Source: Flavobacteriales bacterium (GTDB taxonomy: Bacteria; Bacteroidota; Bacteroidia; Flavobacteriales_E; Vicingaceae). Taken from it: a stretch of DNA of 64,000 nt. The notes beneath the pieces are model-generated. The model saw nothing but the letters and a program-made list of their open reading frames with translations, searched no databases and had not been told where the DNA came from. Below, one piece after another: positions 29,999 to 56,092 of this stretch. Within the stretch, counting starts at the first letter, position 1; every line of letters starts with the position of its first letter. Location of the stretch: contig CAJPFH010000045.1 in NCBI GenBank assembly GCA_905339165.1, positions 1 through 64,000 of the forward strand, read 5' to 3'. The position numbers and the translations under genes were made by a program.

Positions 29999-30036
29999 GT
30001 GTTATTTATGATTTATCTCATAAATTAACATAACAC
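29999..30036. promoter_or_regulatory. Nested inverted repeat with a degenerate FNR-like core, distal to nar
   Basis: GTGTTAT (29999-30005) and ATAACAC (30030-30036) enclose TTTATGATTTATCTCATAAA (30005-30024). The core ATGAT-TTAT-CTCAT differs from ATGAT-N4-ATCAT by one base. A further inverted repeat ATCATTG/CAATGAT follows at 30039-30063. All lie in the 366-base gene-free stretch 29867-30232, which is otherwise AT-rich non-coding DNA. Confidence 0.5.
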
Positions 30037-30114: not shown

Positions 30115-30132
30115 TTATGATAAGTATCATAA
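30115..30132. promoter_or_regulatory. FNR-like palindrome upstream of the nar operon
   Basis: TTATGATAAGTATCATAA, with perfect 8-bp arms around AG. Its core ATGATAAGTATCAT (30117-30130) matches the motif found at three other promoters in the window. The nearest -7-like box, TCATTTTG (30149-30156), is centred 29 nt downstream, and the first ATG of the operon is 103 nt beyond the core. Confidence 0.65.
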
Positions 30133-30232
30133 ATAGAACTGAGAATAATCATTTTGCTTGCGAACAGTCAATAGCACTTTTACAAACGGAAAGAACAACC
30201 ACAATACATAAAAATTAAAAAGGTATAATTCC

Positions 30233-31129
30233 ATGAACAACAAAAGAAAAATCAAAACGAATTTAAAGACAGCACTCTTGTGGAGTGCACTTTTTTTCCC
30301 TACTGGTTTGTTAATGGCACAAGACGGTGCCGCTTTATTTAAAACAAACTGTAGTGCCTGTCATAATATAGGTAAAGGCAGATTAGTAGGTCCCGACTTA
30401 AAAGGCGTAACCAATAAACGCACCGAAGAGTGGCTTGGTAAATTTATAAAGGCCTCTCAAAATTTTATAAATAGCGGAGATGCCGATGCTAAGGCTATTT
30501 TTGATGAATACAAGGTAGTAATGCCCGACTTTAATTTGCCCGATGCTGACATTAAAGCTATAATAGCACATATTGCCAGTCAAAGCCCTGCTGAAGCCGA
30601 GCAAACAGCAACGGTAGAAGTAGTTGAAACAGCCACATCAAGTGAACCTGCAATGCCTGGTTCTGAAGTTGCTTCAAAAGAAGATATTAAGAAAGGTTCC
30701 GAGTTATTTAGCGGAAAAACCTCTTTTGTAAACGGAGGACCATCATGTCTTTCTTGTCATAATGTTTCAAATGAGCAAGTGCCTGCCGGAGGTTTATTGG
30801 CCAAAGATTTAACATCGGTTTATAGCCGATTAGGAGGCGATGCAGGTCTGCAAGGTATCTTAAAATCTTTCCCATTTCCGGCTATGGCTCATTCCTATAA
30901 AAACAGACCTTTAACCGATGAGGAAGTTAGGTTGGTATCGGCTTTTTTATACGATGCCGATAAAAGCAATATTTATCAGGTAAGCAATTCAGGAAACGGC
31001 ATCTTTATCTATGGTGGAGGTATTGCCTTGGTAGTGCTCCTTATTCTAATTGCATTGCTTTGGTACAACCGCAAAAAAAATAATGTTAAATACGATATCT
31101 ATAATCGTCAAATAAAGTCATCTAATTAA
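30233..31129 (+). CDS. Membrane-anchored diheme cytochrome c of the nar operon
   Basis: A 298-residue exported cytochrome. A signal peptide (to about residue 29) is followed by domain 1 with CSACH (Cys40-His44) and VGPDLKGV. Domain 2 has CLSCH at about residue 170 and a distal Met region (FPAMAHSY). A C-terminal membrane helix lies at about residues 260-283. First gene of the nar operon, 20 nt before narG, comparable in position to the diheme NarC of Thermus. Domain 1 is very close in sequence to the N-terminal domain of ActA at 38058. It probably carries electrons to or from the membrane on the periplasmic face. Confidence 0.88.
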   Translation: MNNKRKIKTNLKTALLWSALFFPTGLLMAQDGAALFKTNCSACHNIGKGRLVGPDLKGVTNKRTEEWLGKFIKASQNFINSGDADAKAIFDEYKVVMPDFNLPDADIKAIIAHIASQSPAEAEQTATVEVVETATSSEPAMPGSEVASKEDIKKGSELFSGKTSFVNGGPSCLSCHNVSNEQVPAGGLLAKDLTSVYSRLGGDAGLQGILKSFPFPAMAHSYKNRPLTDEEVRLVSAFLYDADKSNIYQVSNSGNGIFIYGGGIALVVLLILIALLWYNRKKNNVKYDIYNRQIKSSN

Positions 31130-31149: not shown

Positions 31150-34100
31150 ATGAGCTGGATAGAAGATATTATATCACCCAAAACCCGTAAATGGGAAGAG
31201 TTTTATCGTAACCGTTGGCAATACGATAAGGTAGTACGTAGTACACACGGTGTAAACTGTACCGGTGGCTGCTCTTGGGCAATACACGTTAAAGACGGTA
31301 TTGTTGTGTGGGAAATGCAACAAGTGGATTATCCACAATTTAATAAAGAAGTACCACCCTACGAACCTAGAGGTTGCCAAAGAGGGATTTCGTATTCTTG
31401 GTATTTATACAGTCCGATAAGGGTTAAGTATCCGCTTATAAGAGGGGCATTAATGGATTTATTTAATGCTGAGAAGGAAGCAGCAGGCGGAGATATAGTA
31501 AAAGCTTGGGAAAACTTGCAATCAAACCCCGAAAAACGCAAACGCTATCAAAGAGCAAGAGGAAAGGGAGGTTTCAGAAGAGCAAAGTGGAATGAAGTAG
31601 TAGATTTAATTACTGCGGCAAATATATATACTATTAAGAAATATGGTTCCGATAGAATCATCGGATTTGCACCGATTCCTGCAAAAAGTATGTTAAGTTA
31701 TGCATCCGGAGCACGCTATATTCAGTTAATGGGTGGTGTAAATTTAAGTTTCTACGATTGGTATTGCGATTTACCAAACGCATACCCTGAAATTTGGGGA
31801 GAGCAAACAGACGTGTGCGAAAGTGCCGACTGGTACCATTCTAAGTTCTGTGTTTCTATGGGAGCTAACCTAGGGATGACTAGAACACCCGATATTCACT
31901 TTTTCTCTGAGGCACGTCATAATGGAACTAAAACCGTTGTGATGTCGCCCGACTTCAGCATGGTAACCAAGCATGCCGACCAATGGATTCCAGTTCATGC
32001 AGGTTCTGACGGTGCATTTTGGATGGCGGTTACACACGTTATCTTACAAGAATATCATGTAAACAGACAGGTACCCTACTTTATTGACTACGTAAAAAGA
32101 TATACCGATTGTCCGTTTTTAGTACGATTAAATAAGGAAGGCGACAAGTTAGTACCCGGAAGAATGGTAAGAGCAAATGAAATGGCACAATACAAAGACA
32201 TTTCGAATGGCGATTGGAAATTTTTGAATTTCGATACCCAAACAGGAAACTTAGTTGTACCAAAAGGAACCATGGGACACCGTTGGGATGATAAACAAGG
32301 TAATTGGAATTTGAAATACGAAGATAGTGTAACCAATAATGAATACGATCCTGAACTTACATTTTTAAATAAGAATGAAGGAGTACTACAAGTAGAATTT
32401 GTAGAGTATGGTTTAGATAAAAAAGCATTAAGAGGTGTTCCTGTTAGGTACATAAATGCTGCAAATGGAGAGAAAATCCCGGTGGCTACCATCTACGATT
32501 TAACAATGGCTCAGTATGGGGTAGGTAGAGGATTAGAAGGAAACTATCCAAAAACATACGATGAAAAAGACCAAGCCTATACACCTGCATGGCAAGAAAT
32601 ATTTACCGGAATAGGAAAAGATACCGTAATCCAATTAGCTCGGGAATGGGCAAATACGGCCGAGGTAACCGAAGGCAAATGTATGGTAATTGTAGGTGCA
32701 GCCATTAATCACTGGTTTCATGGAAACTTGATGTACCGTGCCGCTATCATGGCTCAAATGTTAACCGGTTGCAACGGTAAAAATGGTGGCGGAATGAACC
32801 ACTATGTTGGTCAGGAAAAATTAGCCCCTATGGATTCTTGGGCTACCGTGATGAGTTCTAAAGATTGGGGAACTATCCCAAGACTACAGCAAGGACCTAT
32901 TTGGCACTATATCAACTCATCTCAATGGAGATACGATGGAAATCAAAAATTCTATAATTCAGTTCCAGAAAATAAATTGGCACACACACATACTGCCGAT
33001 TGGGCCGTAAAAGCTGTTCGTAACGGTTGGATGCCTTACTATCCTCAATACAACAAAAATAACTTCGAAATTGTAAAAGACGCTCAAAATTCCGGATGTA
33101 AAACAGATGATGAAATAAGAAATTATATTGTAAACCAGCTAAAATCGGGAGAATTAAAACATGCGGTGGTTGAACCCGATGAAGAAATTAATTTTCCCCG
33201 TGTTTGGTTTATTTGGAAAGGAAATGCAATTGGAACATCTGCAAAAGGGCATGAGTACTTTCTTGACCATTATTTAGGAACTCATACGAACAAAATTGCT
33301 GATGAAGTGGCTGGTGATATTGTCGAAGATATCGCTTTCAAAAAAGAAGGAGCGAGAGGTAAAATGGATTTAGTAATAGATGTCAATTTCCGTATGGATA
33401 CCTCTGCATTGTATTCGGATATTGTTCTTCCAACTGCCTCGTGGTATGAAAAGGCTGATATCAATTCAACCGATATGCACTCCTTTATTCACCCATTATC
33501 AGCTGCAATTGACCCTGTTTGGGAATCAAAGTCTGACTGGCAAATTTTCGAACTTTTAGCACTTAGAATAAGTGAAATGGCCAAACAATACCTTCCAGAC
33601 GTAATGAAAGATGTTGTAAATTCTCCTCTTTCTCACGATTCGAAAGATGAGATTACTCAACCACGTTTGCAAGACTGGAGCAAGGGAGAATGCGAAGCGA
33701 TACCCGGCAAAACCATGCATAAAATAGCGTTTGTAGAAAGAGATTATACGAAGATTTATAACAAATACATTTCATTAGGAGAAGGTGTCGCTAAAAGTGG
33801 TTTAGGTGCACATGGAAATCATTATCATTGTGATGATGTATATGCCGAAATGTTAGCAGACAGAAAACATATTCAAAAATGGGAAGGCAAAGAATACCCC
33901 TCATTAAAAGAAGATGTAGAAGCAGTAAATGCAGTTTTAAAATTATCCTCCCTTACCAATGGAAAATTAACAAAACGTGCTTACGAAATAATGGGCAAAA
34001 AAATTGGTGTGGAAGCAGTAGAAAGATTAGGAGACGGATACGAGCAAATTGAAATGGAATACCGCGATTTACAGGCTCAACCCAAGCGTTACAATTCTTC

Positions 34101-34788
34101 GCCTCTTTGGTCTGGATTAATGCATGAAGGTAGAACTTATGCCGCATATACTTATAACGTAGATTACTTGGTGCCATGGAGAACACTTACCGGAAGACAA
34201 CATTTTTATCTCGACCACGATGCTTATATCGCTTTTGGAGAACATTTATCTACCTATAAACCTTCTCCAACTCCCGAAGCTTATGGCGACTTAAGAAAAA
34301 CCGTAAACGATGGAAAAGCAAGAGTGTTAAATTGTTTAACTCCTCATGGAAAATGGCATATTCACTCTACATATGGCGACACATTAAGAATGTTAACTCT
34401 TTCAAGAGGCGGAGAGCCTTGTTGGTTGAGTGAAACCGATGCGGAAGAATTAGGAATAAAAGATAACGATTATGTAGAAGTGTATAACGACCACGGAACA
34501 TACGTTACCCGTGCTTGTGTGAGTGCTCGTATTCCTAAAGGTGTTTGTATTGTTTACCATGCTGTAGAAAGAACATACAACATACCAAAATCGCAAGAAA
34601 GAAGAGGTAAAAATGGAGAACCTAGAAGAGGTGGAATGAACAACTCATTCACCAGGGTTCACTTAAAACCCAATTTAATGTGCGGTGGATATGGACAATT
34701 TACTTACCACTTCAACTATTGGGGGCCGGTAGGCGTAAACCGCGATACGCACGTACTAGTAAGAAAAATGGAAAAAGTAGAGTATTAA
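31150..34788 (+). CDS. narG: Respiratory nitrate reductase alpha subunit
   Basis: The 1212-residue molybdenum subunit that reduces nitrate to nitrite. It tracks E. coli NarG through its length. The FS0 cluster ligands start [13 protein letters not shown] (His33, Cys37, Cys41), then EPRGCQRG supplies the last cysteine. The molybdenum-ligating aspartate is in [11 protein letters not shown] near residue 200. Other matches are GEQTDV.ESADWY, SSQWRY and [27 protein letters not shown]. There is no twin-arginine signal, so the active site should face the cytoplasm. Needs bis-MGD cofactor, to which moeA and the moa genes in this window contribute. Confidence 0.98.
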
Positions 34789-34813: not shown

Positions 34814-36307
34814 ATGGATATCAGATCACAAGTTTCGATGGTGTTTCACCTTGACAAGTGCATAGGTTGTCATACCTGTTCTATTGCCTGTAAAAATATT
34901 TGGACAGACCGCAAAGGGGCCGAATATATGTGGTGGAACAATGTAGAAACCAAACCAGGCACAGGCTACCCAACTAAATGGGAAGACCAAGAAATATACA
35001 AAGGCGGTTGGGAAAAAAACGGAGATTCCGTATCGCTTAAAGGAGCAGGAAAACTGAAAGGTTTAAAGAACATCTTTCACAATCCAAATATGCCTTCCTT
35101 AGAAGATTACTACGAACCATGGGCATACCGCTATACAGATTTATTTGAAGCTCCGGAAGGAGATGATCAACCTATTGGAAGAGCCGTATCTCTGATTACC
35201 GGAGAGCCTATCGAAATACAAGCCGGCCCAAACTGGGATGATGATTTGTCGGGAACTCCCGATTATGCTCGTCAGGATGTTAATTTCAAACATTTAAGCA
35301 AGGCCGAGCAGGAATCTATGTTCCAATTGGAAAGAATGACCTTTCATTACCTTCCAAGAATTTGTAATCACTGTTTAAATCCGGCTTGTGTGGGTTCATG
35401 CCCATCGGGTGCGTTATACAAAAGAGGAGAAGATGGTGTGGTTTTAATTAATCAGGAACGTTGCAGAGCCTGGAGAATGTGTGTTACGGCCTGCCCTTAC
35501 AAAAAGAGCTATTACAACTGGAACACCGGCAAATCTGAAAAATGCGTACTGTGTTATCCTCGTTTAGAGTCCGGACAAGCACCTGCTTGTATGCACTCCT
35601 GCGTTGGTAGAATTCGTTACCTTGGAGTAATGTTATACGATGCAGACAGGATTGAAGCCGTAGCATCTTGTGATGAGGCCGAATTGATTGACAGACAAAT
35701 GGAAATATACCTAGATCCTTTTGACCCTGCAGTAATCAAAGCGGCAAAAGAAAACGGAATATCTGATTCTACGATTGTTGCAGCACAAAATTCTCCGGTA
35801 TATAAGTTTGTGAAAAAATGGAGAATAGCTCTTCCGCTTCATCCGGAATTCCGCACAATTCCTAACTTATTTTACGTACTACCATTGTTGCCCGCTATGG
35901 CTTCCGTTAGTGAAGACGGAGTGTACGACTCTCTTTCCGAAAATTTACTTTCAGGAGTAGAAAAATTGAGAGTACCTATTCGTTACTTATCTTCTTTGTT
36001 TGCTGCCGGAAACGATAATAAAATTATAGAAGTATTTAAACGACTACATGCAGTACGTGTATCGAGGAGAGACACAACAGTAAAAGATGTTACTGAAACA
36101 CAACTAAACAAAGTAATGAGCGAAGCAAATATGGATATTCATGAAGCAAATGAGATTTTCAGACTCACATCATTAGCCACTTTTGAAGAACGCTTTGTTG
36201 TGCCTGCTGCTCACCGTGAAGAAGCCATAGAAATGCTAGAAAACACAGGTGATGTAAAAGGCAATACAGGTTTCGGATTTAAAATGAAACCCGAAAGAGG
36301 ATTATAA
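34814..36307 (+). CDS. narH: Respiratory nitrate reductase beta subunit
   Basis: The 497-residue iron-sulfur subunit that passes electrons from NarI heme to NarG. Cluster motifs run in order: CIGCHTCSIACKN at residues ~16-28, then NHCLNPACVGSCPSGALY, then CRAWRMCVTACPYKK, where Trp replaces a cysteine to hold the [3Fe-4S] cluster, and CVLCYPRLESGQ. The rest follows E. coli NarH closely (ETKPGTGYPTKWE, SCVGRIRYLG). Starts 25 nt after narG; narJ follows after 2 nt. Confidence 0.97.
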   Translation: MDIRSQVSMVFHLDKCIGCHTCSIACKNIWTDRKGAEYMWWNNVETKPGTGYPTKWEDQEIYKGGWEKNGDSVSLKGAGKLKGLKNIFHNPNMPSLEDYYEPWAYRYTDLFEAPEGDDQPIGRAVSLITGEPIEIQAGPNWDDDLSGTPDYARQDVNFKHLSKAEQESMFQLERMTFHYLPRICNHCLNPACVGSCPSGALYKRGEDGVVLINQERCRAWRMCVTACPYKKSYYNWNTGKSEKCVLCYPRLESGQAPACMHSCVGRIRYLGVMLYDADRIEAVASCDEAELIDRQMEIYLDPFDPAVIKAAKENGISDSTIVAAQNSPVYKFVKKWRIALPLHPEFRTIPNLFYVLPLLPAMASVSEDGVYDSLSENLLSGVEKLRVPIRYLSSLFAAGNDNKIIEVFKRLHAVRVSRRDTTVKDVTETQLNKVMSEANMDIHEANEIFRLTSLATFEERFVVPAAHREEAIEMLENTGDVKGNTGFGFKMKPERGL

Positions 36308-36309
36308 AA

Positions 36310-37026
36310 ATGAACAACATTCAGCCATATAGTTTATTTGCACCTATTTTTGCTTATCCCTCAGAGACTTATAAAAGGGAAGTAGATAATTTGCAGACAT
36401 TTTTAAATAAATATTACCCTTTGGCGGCCCAATGTTTTCAACCTTTTTCTGATTATGTGGCTTCTAACCCCCTAGAACAAATAGAGGAGGTGTATACCAA
36501 AACTTTTCATATACAGGCTGTTTGTTACTTAGATTTAGGATACGTTATTTTTGGGGAAGACTACAAGCGAGGAGAGTTTTTGGTTAATATGAAACACGAG
36601 CAAGATTTAGCCGAAAATGATTGCGGAAATGATTTAGCCGACAATTTGGTAAATGTACTTACCCTTTTACCAAAACTGAAAGATCAAGCATTTAAAGAGG
36701 AATTAATAGTTCGCATTTTAATACCTGCACTCGAGAAAATGCTTGCAGAATTTAAGTCTTCTAAAATGGATTTAAGAGAAAAGGTATTAAAAAAAGTGCA
36801 AAAAGTGGTAATACAACAAGGGCTACCTTTTGGAAACATATTTCAGAGTGCGTTATCTGCTTTGTTAGAGGTGTGCAAAACAGCGTATTCATCTACCACA
36901 CTTAAAGCCTATACTCAAGTGCCCGAGGGGTATTACGGTAATTTTTTATCGGGTTGCGGAATCAGTTGCTCAACATCATCAAATACAACAAATACAAATA
37001 CAACATCAACCATTAAAACTTTATAA
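36310..37026 (+). CDS. narJ: Nitrate reductase assembly chaperone NarJ
   Basis: A 238-residue member of the NarJ/TorD/DmsD chaperone family that holds NarG for molybdenum cofactor insertion and membrane attachment. The conserved region is EVYTKTFHIQAVCYLDLGYVIFGEDYKRGEFL (residues ~60-95; read in two parts), embedded in an all-helical protein. The last ~20 residues are a Ser/Thr/Asn-rich tail encoded by near-repetitive ACA/AAT codons, not a family feature. Its position between narH and narI is canonical. Confidence 0.9.
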   Translation: MNNIQPYSLFAPIFAYPSETYKREVDNLQTFLNKYYPLAAQCFQPFSDYVASNPLEQIEEVYTKTFHIQAVCYLDLGYVIFGEDYKRGEFLVNMKHEQDLAENDCGNDLADNLVNVLTLLPKLKDQAFKEELIVRILIPALEKMLAEFKSSKMDLREKVLKKVQKVVIQQGLPFGNIFQSALSALLEVCKTAYSSTTLKAYTQVPEGYYGNFLSGCGISCSTSSNTTNTNTTSTIKTL

Positions 37027-37028
37027 TC

Positions 37029-37751
37029 ATGCTAAACTATCTTTTATTTATTGCTTTGCCATACGCTGCCTTGGCTGTATTTATTATAGGTTCAATATTC
37101 CGTTATCGTTTTATGGGATTCAAAGTATCCTCTTTATCAAGCCAGTTTTTAGAAGGTAAAAATTTGTTTTGGGGCAGCCAGCCCTTTCACTGGGGAATGT
37201 TCTTTTTGTTTTTCGGACATTTAACTGCATTTTTAATCCCTCGAGCAGTTATTGCATGGAATGGAGACCCATTGCGTTTGATAATTTTAGAAGTTACCGG
37301 TTTTGCATTTGGTTTGTCGGCACTTTTGGGCATACTACTACTTATTTTTAGAAGACTCACAAACAAACGACTTCAGATGGTTACCAATTACATGGATGTA
37401 GTGGTGTATATTGTATTATTAGTACAAATCACCTCCGGTTTATGGGTGGCATTTTTTAACAGATGGGGTTCTTCTTGGTTTGCTTCTACTTTAACCCCCT
37501 ACCTGAGGTCTATCTTTTCTTTCGACCCACAGGTAGATGCAGTAAGCATGATGCCTCTTTCTGTTCAGATTCATATCGTTTCAGCATTTTCTATCATTGC
37601 CATTATCCCTTTTACCCGTTTTGTACACTTTTTGGTTTACCCAGTAGATTATTTGTGGAGAAGATACCAACAGGTAATTTGGAATTGGGATAGAAAAGAT
37701 ATAAGAGCTTCTAGAAAACATGTGTATGGAGAGAGAACAAAAAATAACTAA
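37029..37751 (+). CDS. narI: Respiratory nitrate reductase gamma subunit (cytochrome b)
   Basis: A 240-residue, five-helix membrane subunit that oxidises quinol and anchors NarGH. The four heme-ligand histidines are all present: His54 and His64 in FHWGMFFLFFGHL, and His182 and His200 in QIHIVSAF...RFVHFL, matching E. coli His56, His66, His187 and His205. So both b hemes should be bound. Last gene of the operon before a terminator. No narK transporter gene accompanies it. Confidence 0.97.
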   Translation: MLNYLLFIALPYAALAVFIIGSIFRYRFMGFKVSSLSSQFLEGKNLFWGSQPFHWGMFFLFFGHLTAFLIPRAVIAWNGDPLRLIILEVTGFAFGLSALLGILLLIFRRLTNKRLQMVTNYMDVVVYIVLLVQITSGLWVAFFNRWGSSWFASTLTPYLRSIFSFDPQVDAVSMMPLSVQIHIVSAFSIIAIIPFTRFVHFLVYPVDYLWRRYQQVIWNWDRKDIRASRKHVYGERTKNN

Positions 37752-42477: not shown

Positions 42478-42505
42478 TAATAACTAACAGGAAACCTTAT
42501 AAATC

Positions 42506-43879: not shown

Positions 43880-43881
43880 TT

Positions 43882-44406: not shown

Positions 44407-44412
44407 AGAAAT

Positions 44413-44979: not shown

Positions 44980-44997
44980 GAAAAAATTATAGATTTT

Positions 44998-46176
44998 ATG
45001 AATACCATAGATTTAAAAAAAATAAAGACCATATCAATCATTCTTGCGGCTATCGGAATGGTTTCTATTATTATTGGATTTCTTACCGATGTGCAAAGAG
45101 AATGGGCCTCGCTATTGTTTAATAATTTCTTCTTTTTTGCAATTGCTTTAGCTGCTGCATTTTTTGTAGCTGTACAATATGTTTCAAACTCGGGTTGGTC
45201 TATCGTGATACAACGCGTACCCGAAGCAATAGGAACCTATTTGCCTGTGGCTCTTGTTCTCATGGCTATTATTATTTTAGGGGGTATGCACTCTATATAC
45301 CATTGGAGTCATCATGATTTGTACGACCCTAATTCGGAGCATTATGACCCTATTATTGCAGGAAAACAAGCTTTCCTAAATCTTCCTTTTTTTATTATTA
45401 GAATGGTGGTGTATATGGCCGGTTGGTTAGGTTTGTTTTATTTAATTAGAAAAAACTCTATAGCTGCCGATTTCGCACCTCTTGGAGACAACACTCTTTA
45501 CAAGAAAAACTTCAGATTATCAGCTATTTTTATTGTTTTCTTTGCTGTTACTTCTTCCGCTTCTTCTTGGGATTGGCTTATGTCTATTGATACACATTGG
45601 TTCAGCACTCTTTTTGGATGGTATATTTTTTCGGGAATGTTTGTTAGTTCTTTAGTGGTAATTACACTAACCGTATTGTATTTAAAAAGCAAAGGAGCTT
45701 TGCCAAGTGTAAATGATAGTCATATACATGATTTAGGAAAATTTGTATTTGCATTCAGTATTTTCTGGACTTATTTGTGGGTATCACAATTTTTACTTTA
45801 TTGGTATGCCAATATTCCTGAAGAAATTACGTATTATCAGGAACGATTCCAAAACTTTAAAACACCATTATTAATTATGTTGGCTATTAACTTTGTAATG
45901 CCCGTATTAATTTTAATGACTAGGGCTGCCAAACAAAATGCAAAAATTTTAATGATTTTAGGAGCTATTTTATTAATTGGCCACTGGGTTGATTTATACT
46001 TGTTGGTTATGCCTGGAATAATGGGTAACGAGGCTTCGGTGGGTATTCATGAAATTGGTTCTTTCTTCTTTTTTGCAGGTGCATTTCTTTTCGTTGTGTT
46101 TAACAATATGTCTAAGGTTTCACTCGAAATAAAAAATCATCCGTATATCGAAGAATCGGTACACCACCACAGCTAA
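44998..46176 (+). CDS. actF: Alternative complex III, membrane subunit ActF (NrfD-like)
   Basis: A 392-residue second NrfD-like subunit with about ten helices. Landmarks are GGMHSIYHWSHHDLYDP, FLNLPFFIIRMVVYMAGWLGLFY, SSASSWDWLMSIDTHWFST and LLIGHWVDLYLLVMPG. The His-rich end (SVHHHS) is natural. This closes actABCDEF. Cytochrome oxidase genes, which often follow in Bacteroidota, are absent here. Confidence 0.95.
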   Translation: MNTIDLKKIKTISIILAAIGMVSIIIGFLTDVQREWASLLFNNFFFFAIALAAAFFVAVQYVSNSGWSIVIQRVPEAIGTYLPVALVLMAIIILGGMHSIYHWSHHDLYDPNSEHYDPIIAGKQAFLNLPFFIIRMVVYMAGWLGLFYLIRKNSIAADFAPLGDNTLYKKNFRLSAIFIVFFAVTSSASSWDWLMSIDTHWFSTLFGWYIFSGMFVSSLVVITLTVLYLKSKGALPSVNDSHIHDLGKFVFAFSIFWTYLWVSQFLLYWYANIPEEITYYQERFQNFKTPLLIMLAINFVMPVLILMTRAAKQNAKILMILGAILLIGHWVDLYLLVMPGIMGNEASVGIHEIGSFFFFAGAFLFVVFNNMSKVSLEIKNHPYIEESVHHHS

Positions 46177-46263: not shown

Positions 46264-46860
46264 ATGAACCTTAATGATGTAAAAATTAGAGGAAACGCAT
46301 ATTCCTACAATGAATTTATTCAACAAGTAAAAAAGTTATTCAACCAGAAACAAGTTACAGGCTCAGAACAAAGTGAGGCCAAGTTGGAAGCAACTAAAAT
46401 TAATATTCAGCGATTCGATAGACTATATAAAACTACTGTTTTGAGTGAAGTGTTAACCCTAACCATAAAATCAATAAAAGCTCCTCAGATGTGGTATCTT
46501 ATTGTAGAAGGTTGGTGCGGAGACTGTGCCCAAATAGTACCGGTAGTGGCAAAAATTTCGGAAGTAAACCCTTTTATTGAATTGAAAATGGTAATACGAG
46601 ACGAAAACCCCGAGTTTATGGATTCATATTTAACCAATGGCGGAAAGTCGGTTCCTAAGCTAGTTTGTTACGATAAACAAACGGGTAATGAGGTAGCTCA
46701 ATGGGGACCAAGACCACAAAAAATCCAAGAAAAGGTTAAAGCATTAAAAACATCAAATCCGGAAATTAGTCACGATGAGTTTGTGTTGAATGTACACACT
46801 TGGTACGCACAAGATAAAACCCAATCTATTCAAAGCGACTTTATAAATTTGTTTTCTTAG
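46264..46860 (+). CDS. Thioredoxin-family protein (CGDC type)
   Basis: A 198-residue cytoplasmic protein with a thioredoxin-like fold. The active site is WCGDC at about residue 84, in WYLIVEGWCGDCAQIVPVV, and the cis-proline loop may be KSVPKLVCYD. The N-terminal ~60 residues are helical and charged. No signal peptide. Bacteroidota genomes hold many of these (Thioredoxin_9 type) and their partners are unknown. Confidence 0.82.
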   Translation: MNLNDVKIRGNAYSYNEFIQQVKKLFNQKQVTGSEQSEAKLEATKINIQRFDRLYKTTVLSEVLTLTIKSIKAPQMWYLIVEGWCGDCAQIVPVVAKISEVNPFIELKMVIRDENPEFMDSYLTNGGKSVPKLVCYDKQTGNEVAQWGPRPQKIQEKVKALKTSNPEISHDEFVLNVHTWYAQDKTQSIQSDFINLFS

Positions 46861-49632: not shown

Positions 49633-50814
49633 TTATTTCAATAGTTTTTGTTCTTTTCTTCGTTGTTTTTCTTTTATAAGAAGTTGTAGTTCTCTGCTTG
49701 CTTGGCCCTTAATAGAAGTATTTTCTTCGGCTCTTCGGATTAAGTAAGGTATAACAGATTTAATAGGTCCATAAGGCAGATATTTAGTTACGTTGTACCC
49801 TTCACCGGCAAGAGTGTAGCTAATATGGTCGCTCATGCCATATAGTTGAGAGAAATACACATTCGGATGATTGTTTGGAATGTTTTTATCGGACATTAGT
49901 TTTATAAGATGGAGCGTGCTTTCTTCGTTGTGGGTGCCCGCACAAAGCACTATGGTGTCTAAATTAATTAAACAAATTTCTACCGCTTGGTTAAAACTGG
50001 CATCAGTAGCCTCTTTGGTTTGGTGCACCACCGAAGGAATATTTCTTTGGGTGGCATAGTTATTTTCTTTTTCCCAGTAGGCTCCGCGAACCAATTTAAC
50101 GCCTAAGAAAAATTTATTTTCTCGTGCTCTTGCAATTAAATTATTTAAGTGTTCAATTTTATCGTTTCGGTACATTTGAAGGGTAGTAGAAATAATAGCC
50201 CTATTTTTATTAAACTGTTCCATTAAATGTTCTGTTAATTCATCAATGGTTTTTTGTATCCAGCTTTCTTCGGCATCAATAAAAATGGGAACATTGTTTA
50301 CATAAGCAGTTTCGCATATTTCGTAAAATCGTTTTTTCAAGCTTTCGAATTCGGTTTGTTCTTCGGTAGTTAAAGGAGCGTGGGCATTTATTTTTTCAAG
50401 CAGTTCAAAGCGGGCTATTCCTGTTATTTTAAGACAAGAATAGGGAATAGACAAGTTATTTTTTGCTTTAAGAATAATTTTAATGAGTTCTTTTTTTACA
50501 TTTTCAAAACTTTCTTCATCGTGGTTTCCTTCAACTGAATAATCTAAAATAGCCCCTATTCCCGATTTGCTCATTCTGTTTAGTGTGGTATCACATTCTT
50601 GCATATTTTCTCCTCCGCAGAATTGTTGAAAAATGGTTGAACGCACAATCCAGTCTATAGGCAGGTGCAGTTTGTATGCAAGCAGTGTTAGTTTAGTTAA
50701 TAGCTTAACCGTATTCGGATTATTCATTACCTTAAAAATGAACGAAGCCTTGTTTAGTTCTTTGTTACTGCGGTTTTTATAAGCAAATTCGGTATTATTA
50801 AAATTAATAGGCAT
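49633..50814 (-). CDS. Proline dehydrogenase
   Basis: A 393-residue FAD-linked ProDH of the monofunctional type, oxidising proline to pyrroline-5-carboxylate and passing electrons to quinone. Landmarks are KLTLLAYKLHLPIDWIVRSTIF, ILDYSVEG, IDAEESWIQ, LGVKLVRGAYWEKE and the C-terminal YLPYGPIKSVIPYLIRRAEENT. No aldehyde dehydrogenase domain is fused. Last gene of the operon Crp/Fnr-PNPOx-hemN-ProDH, 7 nt after hemN. Confidence 0.92.
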   Translation of the reverse strand: MPINFNNTEFAYKNRSNKELNKASFIFKVMNNPNTVKLLTKLTLLAYKLHLPIDWIVRSTIFQQFCGGENMQECDTTLNRMSKSGIGAILDYSVEGNHDEESFENVKKELIKIILKAKNNLSIPYSCLKITGIARFELLEKINAHAPLTTEEQTEFESLKKRFYEICETAYVNNVPIFIDAEESWIQKTIDELTEHLMEQFNKNRAIISTTLQMYRNDKIEHLNNLIARARENKFFLGVKLVRGAYWEKENNYATQRNIPSVVHQTKEATDASFNQAVEICLINLDTIVLCAGTHNEESTLHLIKLMSDKNIPNNHPNVYFSQLYGMSDHISYTLAGEGYNVTKYLPYGPIKSVIPYLIRRAEENTSIKGQASRELQLLIKEKQRRKEQKLLK

Positions 50815-50821
50815 GAGTAGG

Positions 50822-52156
50822 TTATACTAGTTTAAGGGTGGTGTTTTCTGAAAGGGTTTTATTTTCTTCAAAAGATTGCAGCAAAATTGAATAAAGTTTG
50901 GAAATGTTTTTAATTCCTTTTTTTCGTATTTTTATTTCGTTGGTTTTTAGATCTAACCATTTTTCATCTTCCATTTTTTCTATGGTTTGCAGTATGTTTT
51001 TGTTAAAAAGTTTTGCATCGTTTTGGTTTGCAATTTTTGTTTTTCCTTTACACATTAAGTTTAGCAAATGCTTTCGGAGCAGTAACCTTTCTTTAGTAAA
51101 GTAATGAGTTTTTTCTATAGGAAACTCATTGTTATCTATGCTATAATAATAATCTTCCGTTTTCATGCAATTTCTGGAAAGCATGGTAAAGGTGTCGGTG
51201 GCAGCTCTGGCTCCAATTCCTATGCAAAGTTTAGTATTAGAAAAATTAAAGCCTATATAATTATAGTGCAAATGGCCTATTTTATACTCGTTGTAAACTT
51301 TGCTGTTTTTAAGTACAAAATGGTTGTTACCTATCTCTGTATAACCCGATTCTATTATCATTTCTTTTCCCAAAGTGTAAAAAATTTCTTTTTCGGAAGG
51401 AAAGGGTAGTAGGTTTTGAAATGATAACTGTGCGGCATTTACTTCGGGCATGTGTATGTATTCGGTCCAGTTGATGCGTTCGGGCTTAATTTGGCGTATT
51501 TTGTAGATAGTATCTATTATGGAAGACCTTGTTTGGTGAGGTAATCCGTAAAGCAAATCAACACACAGCGTTTCGTAGCCCATAAAACGGGCTTGTTTGG
51601 TAAGTTCTAGTACATCTTCTATTTTTTGCCTACGTTTTAAAATTTCCTGAACATGAGGATCGAAATCTTGTAAACCCATCACAATAGTATTAAATCCGTA
51701 TTTTCTAAAAAGTGCTAAGTGCTCCTTGTTGGTGTGGTTAATATGCATTTCAAAACTAAGCTCTGCATTAGAGGTTATAAAAGAAGTGGATTTTATTTCG
51801 AGCAACATTTTTTCAATATTTTCCAAGCTAAAAAATGTAGGTGTTCCTCCCCCAATATGCAATTGTTTAATGGTAGGTTTTTCCTGAAAAAGGTTCAAAT
51901 ACATTCTCCATTCTTTTATAAGATATTCTATGTAGCGGTTTTCTACTGCATGATTTTTACTAATAATGGGTTCGAAACAGCAATAGGTGCAAAGAGCTTC
52001 ACAAAAAGGCAGGTGAATGTAAAGTGATATGTTTTTTCCTGAAAATGAGCTGCTGAAAATATTTTTTACTTCTTTGGCCCACTTGGTTTTATTTGGTTTT
52101 CTTTTATCCCAACTGGTGGCAAACGGATAATTTTCGCTAATTAAAAGGGTATTCAT
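50822..52156 (-). CDS. hemN: Oxygen-independent coproporphyrinogen III oxidase-like radical SAM protein
   Basis: 444 residues from ATG 52156, whose first bases overlap the upstream stop (ATGA). The radical-SAM cysteines are in HLPFCEALCTYCCFEP (Cx3Cx2C plus the HemN-type fourth cysteine), followed by LHIGGGTPTFFS and GLQDFDPHVQEILKR, and ERINWTEYIHMPE as in HemN. It decarboxylates coproporphyrinogen III without oxygen, which anaerobic heme supply for NarI and the cytochromes requires. An open frame extends 13 codons upstream to 52195 through a poly-C run, but that part overlaps the previous gene. Confidence 0.9.
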   Translation of the reverse strand: MNTLLISENYPFATSWDKRKPNKTKWAKEVKNIFSSSFSGKNISLYIHLPFCEALCTYCCFEPIISKNHAVENRYIEYLIKEWRMYLNLFQEKPTIKQLHIGGGTPTFFSLENIEKMLLEIKSTSFITSNAELSFEMHINHTNKEHLALFRKYGFNTIVMGLQDFDPHVQEILKRRQKIEDVLELTKQARFMGYETLCVDLLYGLPHQTRSSIIDTIYKIRQIKPERINWTEYIHMPEVNAAQLSFQNLLPFPSEKEIFYTLGKEMIIESGYTEIGNNHFVLKNSKVYNEYKIGHLHYNYIGFNFSNTKLCIGIGARAATDTFTMLSRNCMKTEDYYYSIDNNEFPIEKTHYFTKERLLLRKHLLNLMCKGKTKIANQNDAKLFNKNILQTIEKMEDEKWLDLKTNEIKIRKKGIKNISKLYSILLQSFEENKTLSENTTLKLV

Positions 52157-52617
52157 TTTAATGGGGGGGGTTGATTTAAATCCAGCGAGTTCCATTTAAT
52201 TTTTTTACCAAAGCCAAGGGAGTTATCGGTTAATTTAAAATAGAGAGGTTTTAACATCCAAAGGCTTAGCTTCATTTTTTTTGTAAATGGGAATACGCCA
52301 TGGTATAACTGTTCTATGTTTTCTTTTTCGGCAGTACTTAAATCTAAAATTATTTTTCCGGTAAATTGTAATCCCTTAACAGATGCAATAGTGTTTTGTT
52401 TTTTATAAATGCTTCCGGCAACAAAGGGTTGAATTAAAAAATCGGAAACGTGCTTTGTTCTTTTATCAGAGGTAAAAACAAAATAATTTTCGGACATATG
52501 GTATGCATAAAAACAAATGGCCGAGTAAGGTATGTTTTGGAAAGAGGTGGCTAAAGTAAAAACTTTGTTTTCTTTAATATACTTTATAATTTGCGTGTTA
52601 ACGGGTTCAATTTTCAT
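52153..52617 (-). CDS. Pyridoxamine 5'-phosphate oxidase-related FMN-barrel protein
   Basis: A 154-residue split-barrel protein. FTLATSFQNIPYSAICFYAYH and NYFVFTSDKRTKHVSDFL are typical of the PNPOx-like/YhbP group that binds FMN, and in some relatives heme. Catalytic role unknown; its place before hemN hints at heme or redox work. It overlaps the regulator gene upstream by 11 bases and hemN by four. The final codons pass through an eight-base C-run; one extra base would fuse it in frame to hemN. Confidence 0.78.
   Translation of the reverse strand: MKIEPVNTQIIKYIKENKVFTLATSFQNIPYSAICFYAYHMSENYFVFTSDKRTKHVSDFLIQPFVAGSIYKKQNTIASVKGLQFTGKIILDLSTAEKENIEQLYHGVFPFTKKMKLSLWMLKPLYFKLTDNSLGFGKKIKWNSLDLNQPPPLK
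52163..52170. repeat. Eight-base poly-G tract at a gene junction
   Basis: Read as CCCCCCCC on the coding strand near the end of the FMN-barrel gene. Adding one C would continue the frame into hemN; losing one would stop it at a TAA two codons early. Confidence 0.9.
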
Positions 52618-53299
52618 GCTCTCCTATAAATTTCAGTCGCTGCAAATTATTTATTCTTATGCTTTGTTTTGTTAGCGTTAATATATCGCTTTTTGAAAGT
52701 TCATTAATAACTTTGTACAAATAATTCTTTGTGGTTCCGGCTAAGCTGGCAATATCATCTAAATTATAAGATAGGGTATGAGGATTTTGTCCTCTTCCGT
52801 TTATTTGGCAAAGTGAAATGAGTAGTTCAATCACTCTTTGTTTGGTGGTTTTATAAAATAATCCGTTCGTTCGGTTTTCTATTAAATAAATGTTGTAACA
52901 TAAAATTTTCATTAATTCTAAAGCCGATTCAGAATTTGAACTCACCATTTGTTGAAAATTGTCGGCAGGCATAAAAAGTGTTTCTGTTTTTTCCAATGCA
53001 ATGGCAGAGAAGGTATAATTATTTTCGAAGATATAGGAGCTTACTCCAATCAATTCACCCGGAACAACATAGCGAATAATAGAACTATGGTTTTCGTTTT
53101 CGCCTTTTATAATTTTTGCAACGCCCTTGTTTATGAAGTACACTCCATTGTAAGGACTGGATTGTTTAATAATGTAATCGTTTTTTTGGAAAGAAATCTT
53201 TTCTACCCCCTTTAAATTCTTAGATAAGATTATTTCAGGGCATTTGTCAAATAGCGGATTTTGTTTTAAGTGCGTTATGTATGGTAATAATTCAGACAT
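52607..53299 (-). CDS. Crp/Fnr-family transcriptional regulator
   Basis: A 230-residue regulator. A cNMP-fold sensor domain (GVYFINKGVAKIIKG, VVPGELIGVSS) is followed by a dimer helix and a winged HTH (LDDIASLAGTTKNYLYKVINEL). The recognition helix differs from that of FNR: it lacks the E-x3-R pattern. Cysteines are few and do not form an FNR-like set. It heads the operon with the FMN-barrel, HemN and ProDH genes. Its own promoter carries an FNR-like palindrome (53358-53371), so another regulator probably controls it. Confidence 0.9.
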   Translation of the reverse strand: MSELLPYITHLKQNPLFDKCPEIILSKNLKGVEKISFQKNDYIIKQSSPYNGVYFINKGVAKIIKGENENHSSIIRYVVPGELIGVSSYIFENNYTFSAIALEKTETLFMPADNFQQMVSSNSESALELMKILCYNIYLIENRTNGLFYKTTKQRVIELLISLCQINGRGQNPHTLSYNLDDIASLAGTTKNYLYKVINELSKSDILTLTKQSIRINNLQRLKFIGEHEN

Positions 53300-53327: not shown

Positions 53328-53335
53328 CAAAGGTA
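53328..53335 (-). promoter_or_regulatory. -7 box of the Crp/Fnr-hemN operon
   Basis: TACCTTTG on the reverse strand, an exact TAnnTTTG match. Its centre is 33 nt downstream of the centre of the palindrome at 53358-53371. Confidence 0.6.
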
Positions 53336-53357
53336 AAGTGGTAATTAGCAGTTAAAT

Positions 53358-53371
53358 ATGATACGAATCAT
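53358..53371. promoter_or_regulatory. FNR-like palindrome upstream of the hemN operon
   Basis: ATGATACGAATCAT: half-sites ATGAT/ATCAT with a 4-bp spacer, placed about -40 relative to the start predicted from the -7 box. This suits activation from a class II position. Confidence 0.7.
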
Positions 53372-53408
53372 AACGGAATATGATATTCACTATACTATGC
53401 AAAATCCG

Positions 53409-54122
53409 CTAATCAATGATATTCGCTAATTTAACTAAGCGACTCATATTTAGGATTTTTATTTTCTTGCCGTCTAGCTTTATTATTTTTTCTGCTTTAA
53501 ATTCCGATAAGGTGCGTATGGTGGTTTCTGTGGTAACTCCAGCCACATCGCCAATTTCCCTGCGTGTAAGAATAGCGGCAATTGTTTGCTCATCGTTTTC
53601 TAGTCCGTAACACTCTTTTATCAATAAAAGTGCTTCAGCAATTCTTTCTCGCACAGGTTTCTGAGCCATATTTAAAATGCGTTTTTCGGCCGCTTTTAAA
53701 TCATTTGTTAGCATTTGTATGGTTAGCATGGAGAGCTGACCATTCTTTTTTATTTGTTCTATAAAATCGTTTTTAGGAATGTAGCAAATTAGGGTGTTTT
53801 CTAAAGCGGTGGCCGATGCTTTATATGGTTCGTTGCTTAAAAGTGCTCTATAGCCTAATAAACCTCCCGGTTTTACAAATCGTACAATTTGATCATCGCC
53901 TTCTCCTCCCATTTTATGTACTTTCACTTTACCGCTCTTAATGCAAAAAAGACCATGAGGTTGGTTTCCTTCATAAAAAATGATTTGTCCTTTTTTGTAA
54001 ACATTAAACGATTTTGTTTTCGAAAATTCAGCTAATTCGCTTTTATTCATGCTGCAAAGAATAATAGAATCTTTATTATCGCAGGTATCGCAGTTTGGAG
54101 GGCTTATTTTTTTGGAAATCAT
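53409..54122 (-). CDS. FNR-like regulator with a four-cysteine set (candidate oxygen sensor)
   Basis: A 237-residue Crp/Fnr protein. The N-terminus has Cys11, Cys14 and Cys23, and Cys113 lies in the sensor domain, parallel to FNR Cys20, Cys23, Cys29 and Cys122 that bind the oxygen-labile [4Fe-4S] cluster. The spacing is CX2CX8C, not FNR's CX2CX5C. The HTH (RREIGDVAGVTTETTIRTLSEF) keeps the Glu and Arg that read GA/TC in FNR, while FNR's Ser212 is Ile here. That would agree with a half-site ATGAT in place of TTGAT. Sensor chemistry is inferred; the family call is firm. Confidence 0.9.
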   Translation of the reverse strand: MISKKISPPNCDTCDNKDSIILCSMNKSELAEFSKTKSFNVYKKGQIIFYEGNQPHGLFCIKSGKVKVHKMGGEGDDQIVRFVKPGGLLGYRALLSNEPYKASATALENTLICYIPKNDFIEQIKKNGQLSMLTIQMLTNDLKAAEKRILNMAQKPVRERIAEALLLIKECYGLENDEQTIAAILTRREIGDVAGVTTETTIRTLSEFKAEKIIKLDGKKIKILNMSRLVKLANIID

Positions 54123-54153
54123 AATTGCAAATGTTGATTTTTTGAATCGCTAC

Positions 54154-54161
54154 CAAAATTC
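54154..54161 (-). promoter_or_regulatory. Probable -7 box of the FNR-like gene
   Basis: GAATTTTG on the reverse strand, one mismatch to TAnnTTTG, centred 33 nt from the palindrome at 54184-54197. Confidence 0.4.
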
Positions 54162-54183
54162 AAGAGTATTATCATAATTAAAC

Positions 54184-54197
54184 ATGATGAAAATCAT
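54184..54197. promoter_or_regulatory. FNR-like palindrome upstream of the FNR-like gene
   Basis: ATGATGAAAATCAT. It lies 62 bp from the regulator's ATG, which suggests autoregulation. It is also in the gap shared with the divergent modE-moa operon. Confidence 0.65.
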
Positions 54198-54322
54198 ACA
54201 TTTGTTGTGATTTAGGGAAATTTTAAATGATGCAACTGAAAATACCAAAATATATATAATGTATTTAAAATCAATTAGTAAAACAGAAATTTTATTGAAA
54301 ATCATTTTGCCTAAAATACGAT

Positions 54323-54366
54323 ATGATTTGAGTCATATTTTCCTTTATTTACAGGGCATAGATTTA
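54323..54366 (+). promoter_or_regulatory. FNR-like palindrome and -7 box of the modE-moa operon
   Basis: ATGATTTGAGTCAT (54323-54336) has one mismatch to ATGAT-N4-ATCAT but lies within longer arms ATATGA/TCATAT. TAGATTTA (54359-54366) has one mismatch to TAnnTTTG. Their centres are 33 nt apart, as at the other two promoters. The ATG is at 54398. Confidence 0.55.
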
Positions 54367-54397: not shown

Positions 54398-54739
54398 ATG
54401 ACAAAGAGACAAAAATACCGCATCGATTGCCGAATATGGATTGTTGGCGAAAATGGTACATTTTTAGGGGCAGGTAGGGTAAAACTGATGCAAGAAATAG
54501 GTAAATGGGGTTCTATAAGTAAAGCAGCAAAAAAATTGGGAATGTCGTATCGAAAGGCATGGGAATCGGTAGAGGCTATCAATATGGAGGCCGAAAAGCC
54601 ATTGGTTGTTAAAACCTCGGGAGGAAAAGGTGGAGGAGGCGCCATTCTAACCTTAGAAGGGAAAAAAGCAATAAAAAATTATCTTAGAATTGTAAAAAAT
54701 ACAGAAGTATATATTACCAAACAATTACAAACATTCTGA
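54398..54739 (+). CDS. ModE-like winged-helix DNA-binding protein
   Basis: 113 residues equal to the N-terminal DNA-binding half of ModE: LGAGRVKLMQEIGKWGSISKAAKKLGMSYRKAWESVEAIN, then a glycine-rich wing (SGGKGGGGAILT). The molybdate-binding TOBE domains of full ModE are missing, so it cannot sense molybdate as E. coli ModE does. First gene of a run with moaE and moaC-mogA, so it likely regulates or is tied to molybdenum cofactor supply. Confidence 0.85.
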   Translation: MTKRQKYRIDCRIWIVGENGTFLGAGRVKLMQEIGKWGSISKAAKKLGMSYRKAWESVEAINMEAEKPLVVKTSGGKGGGGAILTLEGKKAIKNYLRIVKNTEVYITKQLQTF

Positions 54740-54757: not shown

Positions 54758-55195
54758 ATGAAAAAAGAAAACATTTTTGTAAAAGGAGCAATAAGTGCCA
54801 GTTTAGTGGCAGAAGAGATATTGACTGTTCAGCAAAATAAAAAGGTAGGGGCTCATACCATTTTTATCGGTCAAGTGCGTAACGATACCATAAAAGAGAA
54901 AAAGATTATAGCCATAGAATATTCGGCCTACGAAGAAATGGCCGATGCTACGTTTTTTAAAATTATGGAGGAGGCAAGTGAAAAGTTTAATATCGAAGCA
55001 TTAGTTATTAAACACAGTTTGCAAAAAGTAAAATGTGGAGAGATGTGTTTGTTTGTTTTAGTGGCAACAGCTCACCGCAACGAGGCTTATGACGCTTCTC
55101 GTTTTGTGGTTGAGGCCATTAAAAAGCAGGTGCCGGTTTTTGGTAAAGAAATTTTTGAAGATGAAAGTCACACATGGAAAATAAATAAATTTTAA
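54758..55195 (+). CDS. moaE: Molybdopterin synthase catalytic subunit MoaE
   Basis: 145 residues. GAHTIFIGQVRNDT, IEYSAYEEMADATF, VKCGEMCLFVLVATAHRNEAYDASRFVVEAIKKQVPVFGKE (read in pieces) and the C-terminal SHTWKIN are the MoaE signatures, including the Lys pair near the active site. It adds two sulfurs to cyclic pyranopterin together with MoaD, for which no gene is present in this window. Its stop is immediately followed by the moaC ATG. Confidence 0.93.
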   Translation: MKKENIFVKGAISASLVAEEILTVQQNKKVGAHTIFIGQVRNDTIKEKKIIAIEYSAYEEMADATFFKIMEEASEKFNIEALVIKHSLQKVKCGEMCLFVLVATAHRNEAYDASRFVVEAIKKQVPVFGKEIFEDESHTWKINKF

Positions 55196-56092
55196 ATGGT
55201 AGATATTACCCATAAATCAAATTCGCTCCGGGAAGCCGTATCTAGAGCCATAGTAAAGGTTGGAAACCCCGATACCATTACAGCCTTAAATGAGCGAAAG
55301 GTGCCAAAGGGCGATGTTTTTGAAATGGCTAAAGCAGCCGGATTATTAGCCGTAAAAAATACGTTTAATGTTATACCAGATTGTCACCCACTGCCTGTTG
55401 AATTTGCAAAAGTTGCATACCAAATAGAGGGAAACGAAATCTCTATAGAAATGCATGTAAAAACCATCTATAAAACAGGAGTAGAAGTAGAAGCTATGCA
55501 CGGAGTAGCAGTAGTAGCTCTTACATTTTACGATATGTTAAAACCCATAGACAAAAATATAGAGATACTTTCCATTAAACTAGTATCTAAAAAAGGAGGC
55601 AAATCGGATTTTAAAGATAAATTCAGAAAAGATATTAAAGCGGCAGTAGTAGTATGTTCTGACATGATTCTTGCCGGAAAAAAAGAAGATAAGGCGGGTA
55701 AGTTGGTTGAAAAAAAGCTATTGGAAAACAATGTGCAAATTTCTGAATACGTAAATATACCAGATGATGAAATGGTGATTGCTGAAAAAATAACCGATTT
55801 GTGCAAAAGCAATCATTTGGTTTTGGTTGTAGGAGGAACAGGTATTTCGGTACGCGATGTAACCACCAAAGCAGTAAAAAAAATTATTGATTCGGAAATA
55901 CCCGGAATAATGGAATACGCCAGAAGTTATGGGCAACAACGTACCCCTTTTTCAATGCTTTCAAGAAGTATTGCCGGTCTTAAAAACAATACGTTGGTTT
56001 TAGCGATACCGGGTTCCGGCAATGGGGCATCGGAAACAATAGACGCTTTATTTCCTTTTGTGCTCCATGCGTTTAAAACACTACCGGTTTAG
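55196..56092 (+). CDS. MoaC-MogA/MoaB fusion
   Basis: A 298-residue bifunctional protein. Residues 1-150 are MoaC (cyclic pyranopterin monophosphate synthase): MVDITHKSNSLREAV, NVIPDCHPLPVEF and TGVEVEAMHGVAVVALTFYDMLK. Residues 155-298 are MogA/MoaB (molybdopterin adenylyltransferase): AAVVVCSDMILAGKKEDKAG, LVVGGTGISVRDVT, and IPGIMEYARSYGQQRTPFSMLSRS. In MogA the triad GGTG usually continues P/D-RD; here it is GGTGISVRD. One polypeptide thus covers an early and a late step of the cofactor pathway. Confidence 0.92.
   Translation: MVDITHKSNSLREAVSRAIVKVGNPDTITALNERKVPKGDVFEMAKAAGLLAVKNTFNVIPDCHPLPVEFAKVAYQIEGNEISIEMHVKTIYKTGVEVEAMHGVAVVALTFYDMLKPIDKNIEILSIKLVSKKGGKSDFKDKFRKDIKAAVVVCSDMILAGKKEDKAGKLVEKKLLENNVQISEYVNIPDDEMVIAEKITDLCKSNHLVLVVGGTGISVRDVTTKAVKKIIDSEIPGIMEYARSYGQQRTPFSMLSRSIAGLKNNTLVLAIPGSGNGASETIDALFPFVLHAFKTLPV

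Follow-up and report, generated by a model that had tools for sequence, protein, structure and literature searches.

A conserved FNR-type promoter architecture fitted to the Bacteroidota promoter in a Flavobacteriales genome and its family

In a Flavobacteriales bacterium (GenBank assembly GCA_905339165.1) and in other genomes of its family, genes for nitrate respiration and molybdenum cofactor synthesis, as well as the gene for an FNR-like protein, stand behind a real and conserved FNR-type promoter architecture that is fitted to the Bacteroidota promoter: the palindrome nTGAY-N4-RTCAT, centred 33 nt from the centre of a TAnnTTTG-like -7 box. From these sites, their spacing and conservation, the genes behind them and the cysteines of the protein, we infer that this protein, which belongs to a Bacteroidota clade of FNR-type regulators here called FNR-A, probably binds the palindrome as an oxygen-responsive class II activator centred at -41.5 (rough probability 0.78).

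The analysis began from a 64,000-nt stretch of contig CAJPFH010000045.1 (the window), for which an original prediction, made from the sequence alone, had proposed three neighbouring promoters with a palindrome at a fixed distance from the -7 box. The palindromes ATGATACGAATCAT (53358-53371), ATGATGAAAATCAT (54184-54197) and ATGATTTGAGTCAT (54323-54336) were read in the window and each lies 33 nt from its box, centre to centre, exactly reproducing the predicted positions and distances; two of the three have the longer perfect form TATGA-N6-TCATA. A fourth intergenic promoter of the same build (30139-30182), before a cytochrome c gene and narG, had been overlooked, as had all three palindromes ahead of these genes (starting at 30007, 30116 and 30139). 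Features are collected in Table 1. The three nar palindromes all fall in a stretch of 150 bp ahead of cytochrome c-narG, and the proximal pair is 22 bp, or about two helical turns, apart centre to centre. Downstream of narGHJI, a run of genes at 39361-46176 resembles alternative complex III when its translations are read.

Table 1. Sites, boxes and genes at the four intergenic promoters of the window.
Feature	Position	Strand	Remark
Palindrome TATGATTTATCTCATA	30007..30022	+	distal, upstream of cytochrome c-narG
Palindrome TATGATAAGTATCATA	30116..30131	+	centre 22 bp upstream of promoter-proximal nar site
Palindrome CTGAGAATAATCAT	30139..30152	+	promoter-proximal site of nar operon
-7 box CACTTTTA	30175..30182	+	33 nt from site 30139-30152
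Cytochrome c	30233..31129	+	first gene of nar operon
NarG, nitrate reductase alpha subunit	31150..34788	+	TIGR01580, 1434.6 bits, over cut-off
narH, narJ, narI	34814..37751	+	named by gene order and by-eye likeness to nar operon of genome G008
Proline dehydrogenase	49633..50814	-	last gene of likely operon
HemN-like radical SAM protein	50822..52195	-	below HemN cut-off
YhbP-like protein	52153..52617	-	NCBIfam NF002900, 102.4 bits, below cut-off 176
Second CRP/FNR-superfamily regulator	52607..53299	-	first gene of likely operon
-7 box TACCTTTG	53328..53335	-	crp-like-led operon, 33 nt from palindrome centre
Palindrome TATGATACGAATCATA (plus-strand letters)	53357..53372	-	before crp-like/yhbP-like/hemN-like/proDH operon
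FNR-like regulator	53409..54122	-	237 aa; cysteines 11, 14, 23, 113; conserved C60
-7 box GAATTTTG	54154..54161	-	fnr
Palindrome TATGATTTTCATCATG (minus-strand letters)	54183..54198	-	before fnr
Palindrome TATGATTTGAGTCATA	54322..54337	+	before modE-moaE-moaCB
-7 box TAGATTTA	54359..54366	+	modE-moaE-moaCB
ModE-type DNA-binding domain protein	54398..54739	+	TIGR00637, 83.5 bits, below cut-off 98.5
MoaE	54758..55195	+	
Bifunctional MoaC/MoaB	55196..56092	+	

Within the window the motif is far commoner than in shuffled DNA: TATGA-N6-TCATA occurs four times (0.11 expected; none of 100 shuffles reaches four) and the combined pattern TGA-N6-TCAT-N23-ANNTTTR five times (0.04 expected; none of 100 shuffles reaches five), four of these five matches being intergenic and one (46280-46322) lying inside a predicted gene. 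The genome-wide scan that had been proposed gave a divided answer. The strict palindrome ATGAT-N4-ATCAT was in excess in the same genome, with 17 sites (ten between predicted ORFs) and seven for a reversed control, and exact TATGA-N6-TCATA fell between predicted ORFs in 12 of 14 cases; the palindrome with one mismatch allowed was rarer than its reversed control (132 against 183), so that well-formed palindromes and their spacing carry the signal. Reversed patterns are imperfect controls because they alter dinucleotides, and genomes that carry neither FNR-A nor a second regulator, FNR-B, served as another.

To describe the spacing, centre distances of 18-48 nt were tabulated from good palindromes to a NANNTTTR box, with the stricter NANNTTTG for a set of ten other genomes of the family, hand-chosen among carriers of FNR-A or FNR-B. 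In the window's own genome eight of 35 palindrome-box pairs lie at 33 nt (two of them, C5:96600 and C32:62271, inside predicted ORFs) and the next highest distance has four; in a genome of the same genus (G005) the figures are seven of 33 and, again, four. The ten-genome set has 31 of 85 pairs at 33 nt, nine at 34 and seven at 38, for which a Poisson calculation gives 1.7e-27, a figure that is too small owing to kinship among the genomes. When all distances from 18 to 48 nt are added up, no excess of pairs is seen relative to the reversed pattern (35 against 39 in the window's genome, 33 against 29 in G005); what stands out is the one distance of 33 nt. In the start-site map of Flavobacterium psychrophilum the TAnnTTTG box lies at -12 to -5 (PMC9723704). 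If that map, made in a relative only, also holds here, the fixed 33 nt would place the centre of the site at -41.5, which we interpret as the position of a class II activator; the position of about -41 that had been proposed would then accord with the spacing statistics, the conservation before fnr orthologues and the list of targets.

With a looser pattern, TGA-N6-TCA-N24-ANNTTTR, 19 matches were found in the window's genome (five in the reversed control) and likewise 19 in G005 (seven in the control). Thirteen of the former are intergenic, five lie in predicted ORFs and one (C132:17081) was left unclassified. Each of the 13 intergenic promoters has a similar partner, by eye, in the G005 list, which is weak evidence because the fnr-modE intergenic DNA is 95% identical in G005 and a match inside a gene, at 46280, is paired there as well. 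Four matches to the pattern (C4:113649, C5:889, C5:96600 and C32:62271) were rejected, since they fall within predicted ORFs and lack a G005 partner. For three of the 13 intergenic promoters (C14, C32:20622 and C32:26843) the start of the longest ORF would come before the box and has probably been called too early.

The 13 promoters comprise the four in the window (fnr, modE-moaE-moaCB, the crp-like/yhbP-like/hemN-like/proDH operon and cytochrome c-narG) and those of a cytochrome d1 (nirS-like) gene (PF02239), a NarK-family transporter (below the NCBI cut-off), a porin-like gene followed by MbnP and a diheme peroxidase, hemerythrin-moaA, a MocA-like gene (below cut-off) followed by an XdhC-like gene (by eye) and then a molybdenum hydroxylase, a COX2/COX1 heme-copper oxidase, 6-oxocyclohex-1-ene-1-carbonyl-CoA hydratase (oah; TIGR03200, over cut-off) and two genes without assignment. 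At 34 nt, AGTGATATAAGTCATA faces TAGATTTG before a small gene that is followed by nosZ (over cut-off), and a further NarK-family gene on contig C7 likewise has its box at 34 nt. Several palindromes were set aside: those at korA/nuo, an ECF sigma gene and an enoyl-CoA hydratase fusion are exact but have no box at 33 nt; a near-exact one between bcrC and an SDR gene also has none and was not counted in the regulon, and the same holds for palindromes at NIF3-like, universal-stress-like, PKD-repeat and C26 cation efflux genes. As a separate observation, two genes of anaerobic benzoate degradation, that for benzoyl-CoA reductase subunit C (TIGR02263, over cut-off) and oah, lie at C6:163277-188843 (L053, L054), in a genome with denitrification genes elsewhere.

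Another genome of the family, G008, yielded 22 matches to a pattern restricted to A or C before TGA and G or T after TCA (one in the control), 20 of them intergenic. First genes behind these include fnr, MoeA, cytochrome c followed by narG (over cut-off), hemerythrin, MoaC/MoaB, FeoA, a fusion of copper nitrite reductase (nirK; TIGR02376, over cut-off) with cytochrome c, a CRP-type regulator, a short cNMP-binding ORF and a heavy-metal P-type ATPase, together with a beta-eliminating lyase, an FG-GAP protein, a DUF4920 protein and a PAPS reductase domain protein, for which an anaerobic role is not evident; the others had no family match in a scan of all but L192. The proposed tie to molybdenum cofactor synthesis is supported by the moa genes among the probable targets in both genomes, by the spacing and by the conservation before fnr orthologues; a full HemN is missing from the list.

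The sites share the core TGAY-N4-RTCA with FNR and extend to the consensus nTGAY-N4-RTCAT. Across the 13 promoters of the window's genome the base before TGA is A in six, T in three, C in three and G in one, and the base after TCA is T in all 13; the promoter-proximal half-site is stricter there than the distal one, possibly through an asymmetry of contacts. In the 20 intergenic G008 promoters the counts are A14 and C6 before TGA, T17 and G3 after TCA, the only bases that the pattern allowed. The proposed FNR-like box is supported by spacing, conservation and the list of targets; the strict form ATGAT-N4-ATCAT was rejected as consensus because seven of its 17 sites in the window's genome lie in predicted ORFs and the distal outer base varies.

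A tie to anaerobic heme synthesis, also proposed, fared poorly. The HemN-like gene of the window scores 251.3 bits against a TIGR00538 cut-off of 324.95 and comes third in an operon led by the CRP-like regulator, and a different gene, on contig C31, exceeds the HemN cut-off (434.9 bits), but no TGA-N6-TCA occurs in the 1500 bp that precede it. We therefore reject the statement that a hemN operon controls anaerobic heme synthesis here. The C31 gene seems to follow other open frames closely and its promoter may lie farther upstream; the crp-like-led operon of the window may still matter for tetrapyrroles.

The FNR-like protein combines a cyclic-nucleotide-binding-type roll with a Crp-type helix-turn-helix. 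Its best NCBIfam match is the E. coli-type Fnr model NF008365 (104.1 bits, below the cut-off of 228), and the solved structures nearest to it by sequence are 2GAU of Porphyromonas gingivalis, followed by FNR entries that the fold search identifies as FNR of Aliivibrio fischeri. The AlphaFold model (mean pLDDT 81) superposes on 2GAU with a TM score of 0.84 and on holo-FNR with 0.77-0.78, CRP-type chains of other bacteria matching about equally well; it is silent on the cluster site because the N-terminus (residues 1-19 below 50) is not confidently modelled. Among 15 aligned homologues, C11, C14, C113 and likewise C60 are invariant and C23 is conserved in at least 90%. C14 and C113 align opposite cysteines of solved FNR, C113 with the distal one, and C23 falls three residues from its partner in an ungapped alignment. 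Judged by sequence, the protein keeps counterparts of the four cluster-ligand cysteines of FNR, three N-terminal and one in the beta-roll. Its recognition helix reads TTETTIRTL, with an isoleucine at the place of Ser212 of E. coli FNR; this exchange could explain the altered outer base of the half-site.

Conservation was followed in 30 loci of homologues taken from 46 genomes of the family. TGA-N6-TCA lies at most 250 bp upstream of 29 of them, the exception (L017) having none in its 165 bp of upstream DNA. The 20 group-A loci, the window included, have a box at 33 nt in 17 cases (NANNTTTR) or 19 (NWNNTTTR), and any other single distance in at most three; several of these loci are near-identical copies, so that 20 loci are not 20 independent events. 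Autocontrol of the regulator, as proposed for the window, gains support from a site and box kept before its orthologues. A single palindrome at each of L012-L015 is flanked on both sides by a box at 33 nt, one toward fnr and one toward a divergent ORF, which in G008 (L014) encodes MoeA.

A maximum-likelihood tree of 97 homologues (L006, L026, L034 and L119 were deliberately excluded, and nine more for being shorter than 200 aa or duplicates) has a branch with support 100/99, root unplaced, whose group-A side comprises 30 rows: 21 have a site with a relaxed box at 33 nt, eight a site without such a box and one neither. Outside group A a site is mostly lacking, and 45 of the 46 rows without one lie there. 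Among 80 named loci, TGA-N6-TCA occurs within 220 bp upstream in 34 and a strict box at 33 nt in eight; four group-A homologues of Crocinitomicaceae have the palindrome and no box at 33 nt. Counts of site-plus-box matches per genome, using the restricted pattern applied to G008, average 14.8 (8-25) in 20 genomes with FNR-A, 8.1 in 12 with FNR-B only and 5.4 (1-9) in 14 with neither, against 1.1 to 1.5 in reversed controls; these groups were assigned by hand (G018, G031 and G003 from partial hits) and genome completeness varies. Within genus g8, six FNR-A genomes have 10-17 matches and eight without it 1-8.

The mean of 5.4 in genomes with neither regulator, compared with 1.5 in the control, is what would be expected if the sites were read mainly by another CRP/FNR paralogue, with the 237-aa protein sharing or borrowing them. 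Several paralogues may share one box, as in Pseudomonas, where DNR shares the box type of FNR/ANR. Candidate readers in the window's genome are C7:42965-43675 (in a moaA-nadA gene run, with no N-terminal cysteine set), a receiver-fused protein on C35 and two further paralogues, on C7 and C32, in which an FNR-like set of four cysteines was recognised by eye and with which sites may be shared; the helix letters ETxIRTL are common to C7:42965, the C35 fusion and FNR-A. Against this stand the palindrome and relaxed box that 19 of 20 loci keep ahead of the gene for FNR-A and the higher match counts where FNR-A is present, and we regard a mainly paralogous reader as unlikely. In the C35 protein (C35:34232-35293; L069:2233-3294) an N-terminus that looks receiver-like by eye is fused to an effector domain of CRP/FNR type and the ETxIRTL helix-turn-helix; its homologues recur in the family as open frames of about 350-370 aa.

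FNR-B presents a different arrangement. At its ten loci (L024-L033) the palindrome core begins 16-67 nt before the matched regulator start, and the divergent ORF, cut by locus ends, encodes in all ten a P-type ATPase with a PF12156 metal-binding domain, presumably CcoI-like, an assembly factor of cbb3 oxidase. A box at 33 nt faces the ATPase in seven loci. Toward fnrB, the palindrome itself contains a -7-like box, GATATTTG in seven loci and GATATTTA in one (the latter by eye), and touches TATTTTTG at its edge in the remaining two. This layout predicts that FNR-B would activate the ATPase operon and repress itself. We give roughly even odds to the family having a two-regulator FNR network with one operator type and opposite wiring, in which FNR-A would activate its own gene and the nitrate and molybdenum genes from -41.5, FNR-B would switch the ATPase on and itself off, and one palindrome could drive two divergent promoters at exactly 33 nt each way.

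Repression is plausible at fnrB, and the palindromes at large might be repressor operators, the 33 nt reflecting overlap with upstream promoter contacts. A repressor does not need one exact distance, however, and the gathering of more than a third of the ten-genome pairs at a single distance is what contact with the polymerase demands; moreover, lack of oxygen is expected to turn nitrate respiration genes on. We hold general repression to be quite improbable. Chance matches in the intergenic DNA of an AT-rich genome, which would fit the lack of excess among one-mismatch palindromes and all-distance pairs, are refuted for the set as a whole by the window shuffles, the spacing peak and conservation across genera, although single sites may be due to chance.

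Activation by FNR-A is the reading we prefer. At low oxygen the protein would hold an iron-sulphur cluster, probably through cysteines 11, 14, 23 and 113, dimerise, bind nTGAY-N4-RTCAT and, from -41.5, contact RNA polymerase directly as a class II activator. Its predicted targets would include its own gene, modE-moaE-moaCB, cytochrome c-narGHJI, the narK-like and cytochrome d1 (nirS-like) genes and hemerythrin-moaA, and further the molybdenum hydroxylase operon, the heme-copper oxidase, oah (anaerobic ring hydrolysis) and, at 34 nt, the nosZ operon.

The nearest known system is FNR of Escherichia coli and Aliivibrio fischeri, which is alike in fold, in four cysteines at like places, in the TGAT/ATCA half-site core, in a site that would lie at -41.5 (here by box distance) and in molybdenum cofactor, nitrate and oxidase targets. 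FNR of E. coli recognises TTGAT-N4-ATCAA, with T as the outer base of the half-site, whereas this base is A or variable here; the cysteine loop is CX2CX7-10C here and CX2CX5C in E. coli-type FNR; TAnnTTTG takes the place of the -10/-35 promoter used by E. coli FNR, and the score lies below the NCBI FNR cut-off. ANR/DNR of Pseudomonas likewise place an FNR-like box before denitrification genes and differ in phylum, promoter type and box, that of DNR in denitrifiers being CTTGATnnnnATCAAG (PMC1274295). HcpR and HcpR2 of Bacteroides and Porphyromonas are also Bacteroidota members of the CRP/FNR superfamily; the HcpR2 motif is GTAACnnnnGTTAC, and in most Bacteroides hcp alone makes up the regulon predicted for it (PMC1274295), unlike TGAY-N4-RTCAT before many other genes here, and HcpR is described as heme-dependent (PMC12750200). 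CrpPg of P. gingivalis (2GAU), the closest solved structure by sequence and fold, is described as a cAMP-independent Crp homologue that is not assigned to a known family (PMC12040651); its match starts at residue 41 of the FNR-like protein, past the N-terminal cysteines.

A text search, mostly of papers outside subscription journals, found no paper with the site written as ATGATNNNNATCAT, TATGANNNNNNTCATA or ATGAYNNNNRTCAT, and among the titles and opening lines of abstracts on FNR regulons in Bacteroidetes or Flavobacteria we found none reporting it; the closest published statement found runs the opposite way (PMC8510549). Within the literature searched, FNR-type class II activation at Bacteroidota TAnnTTTG promoters would be described here for the first time, and little was found in print there on oxygen control of Bacteroidota denitrification. 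Many Bacteroidota denitrify or consume N2O. If our reading is true, site, spacing and regulator would together define, for the nar, nir, nos and molybdenum-cofactor genes of the phylum, a regulon of FNR type that can be tested directly, and the simple rule of a palindrome centred 33 nt from TAnnTTTG would predict the regulon in other genomes: an oxygen switch already known elsewhere appears to operate at the unusual Bacteroidota promoters.
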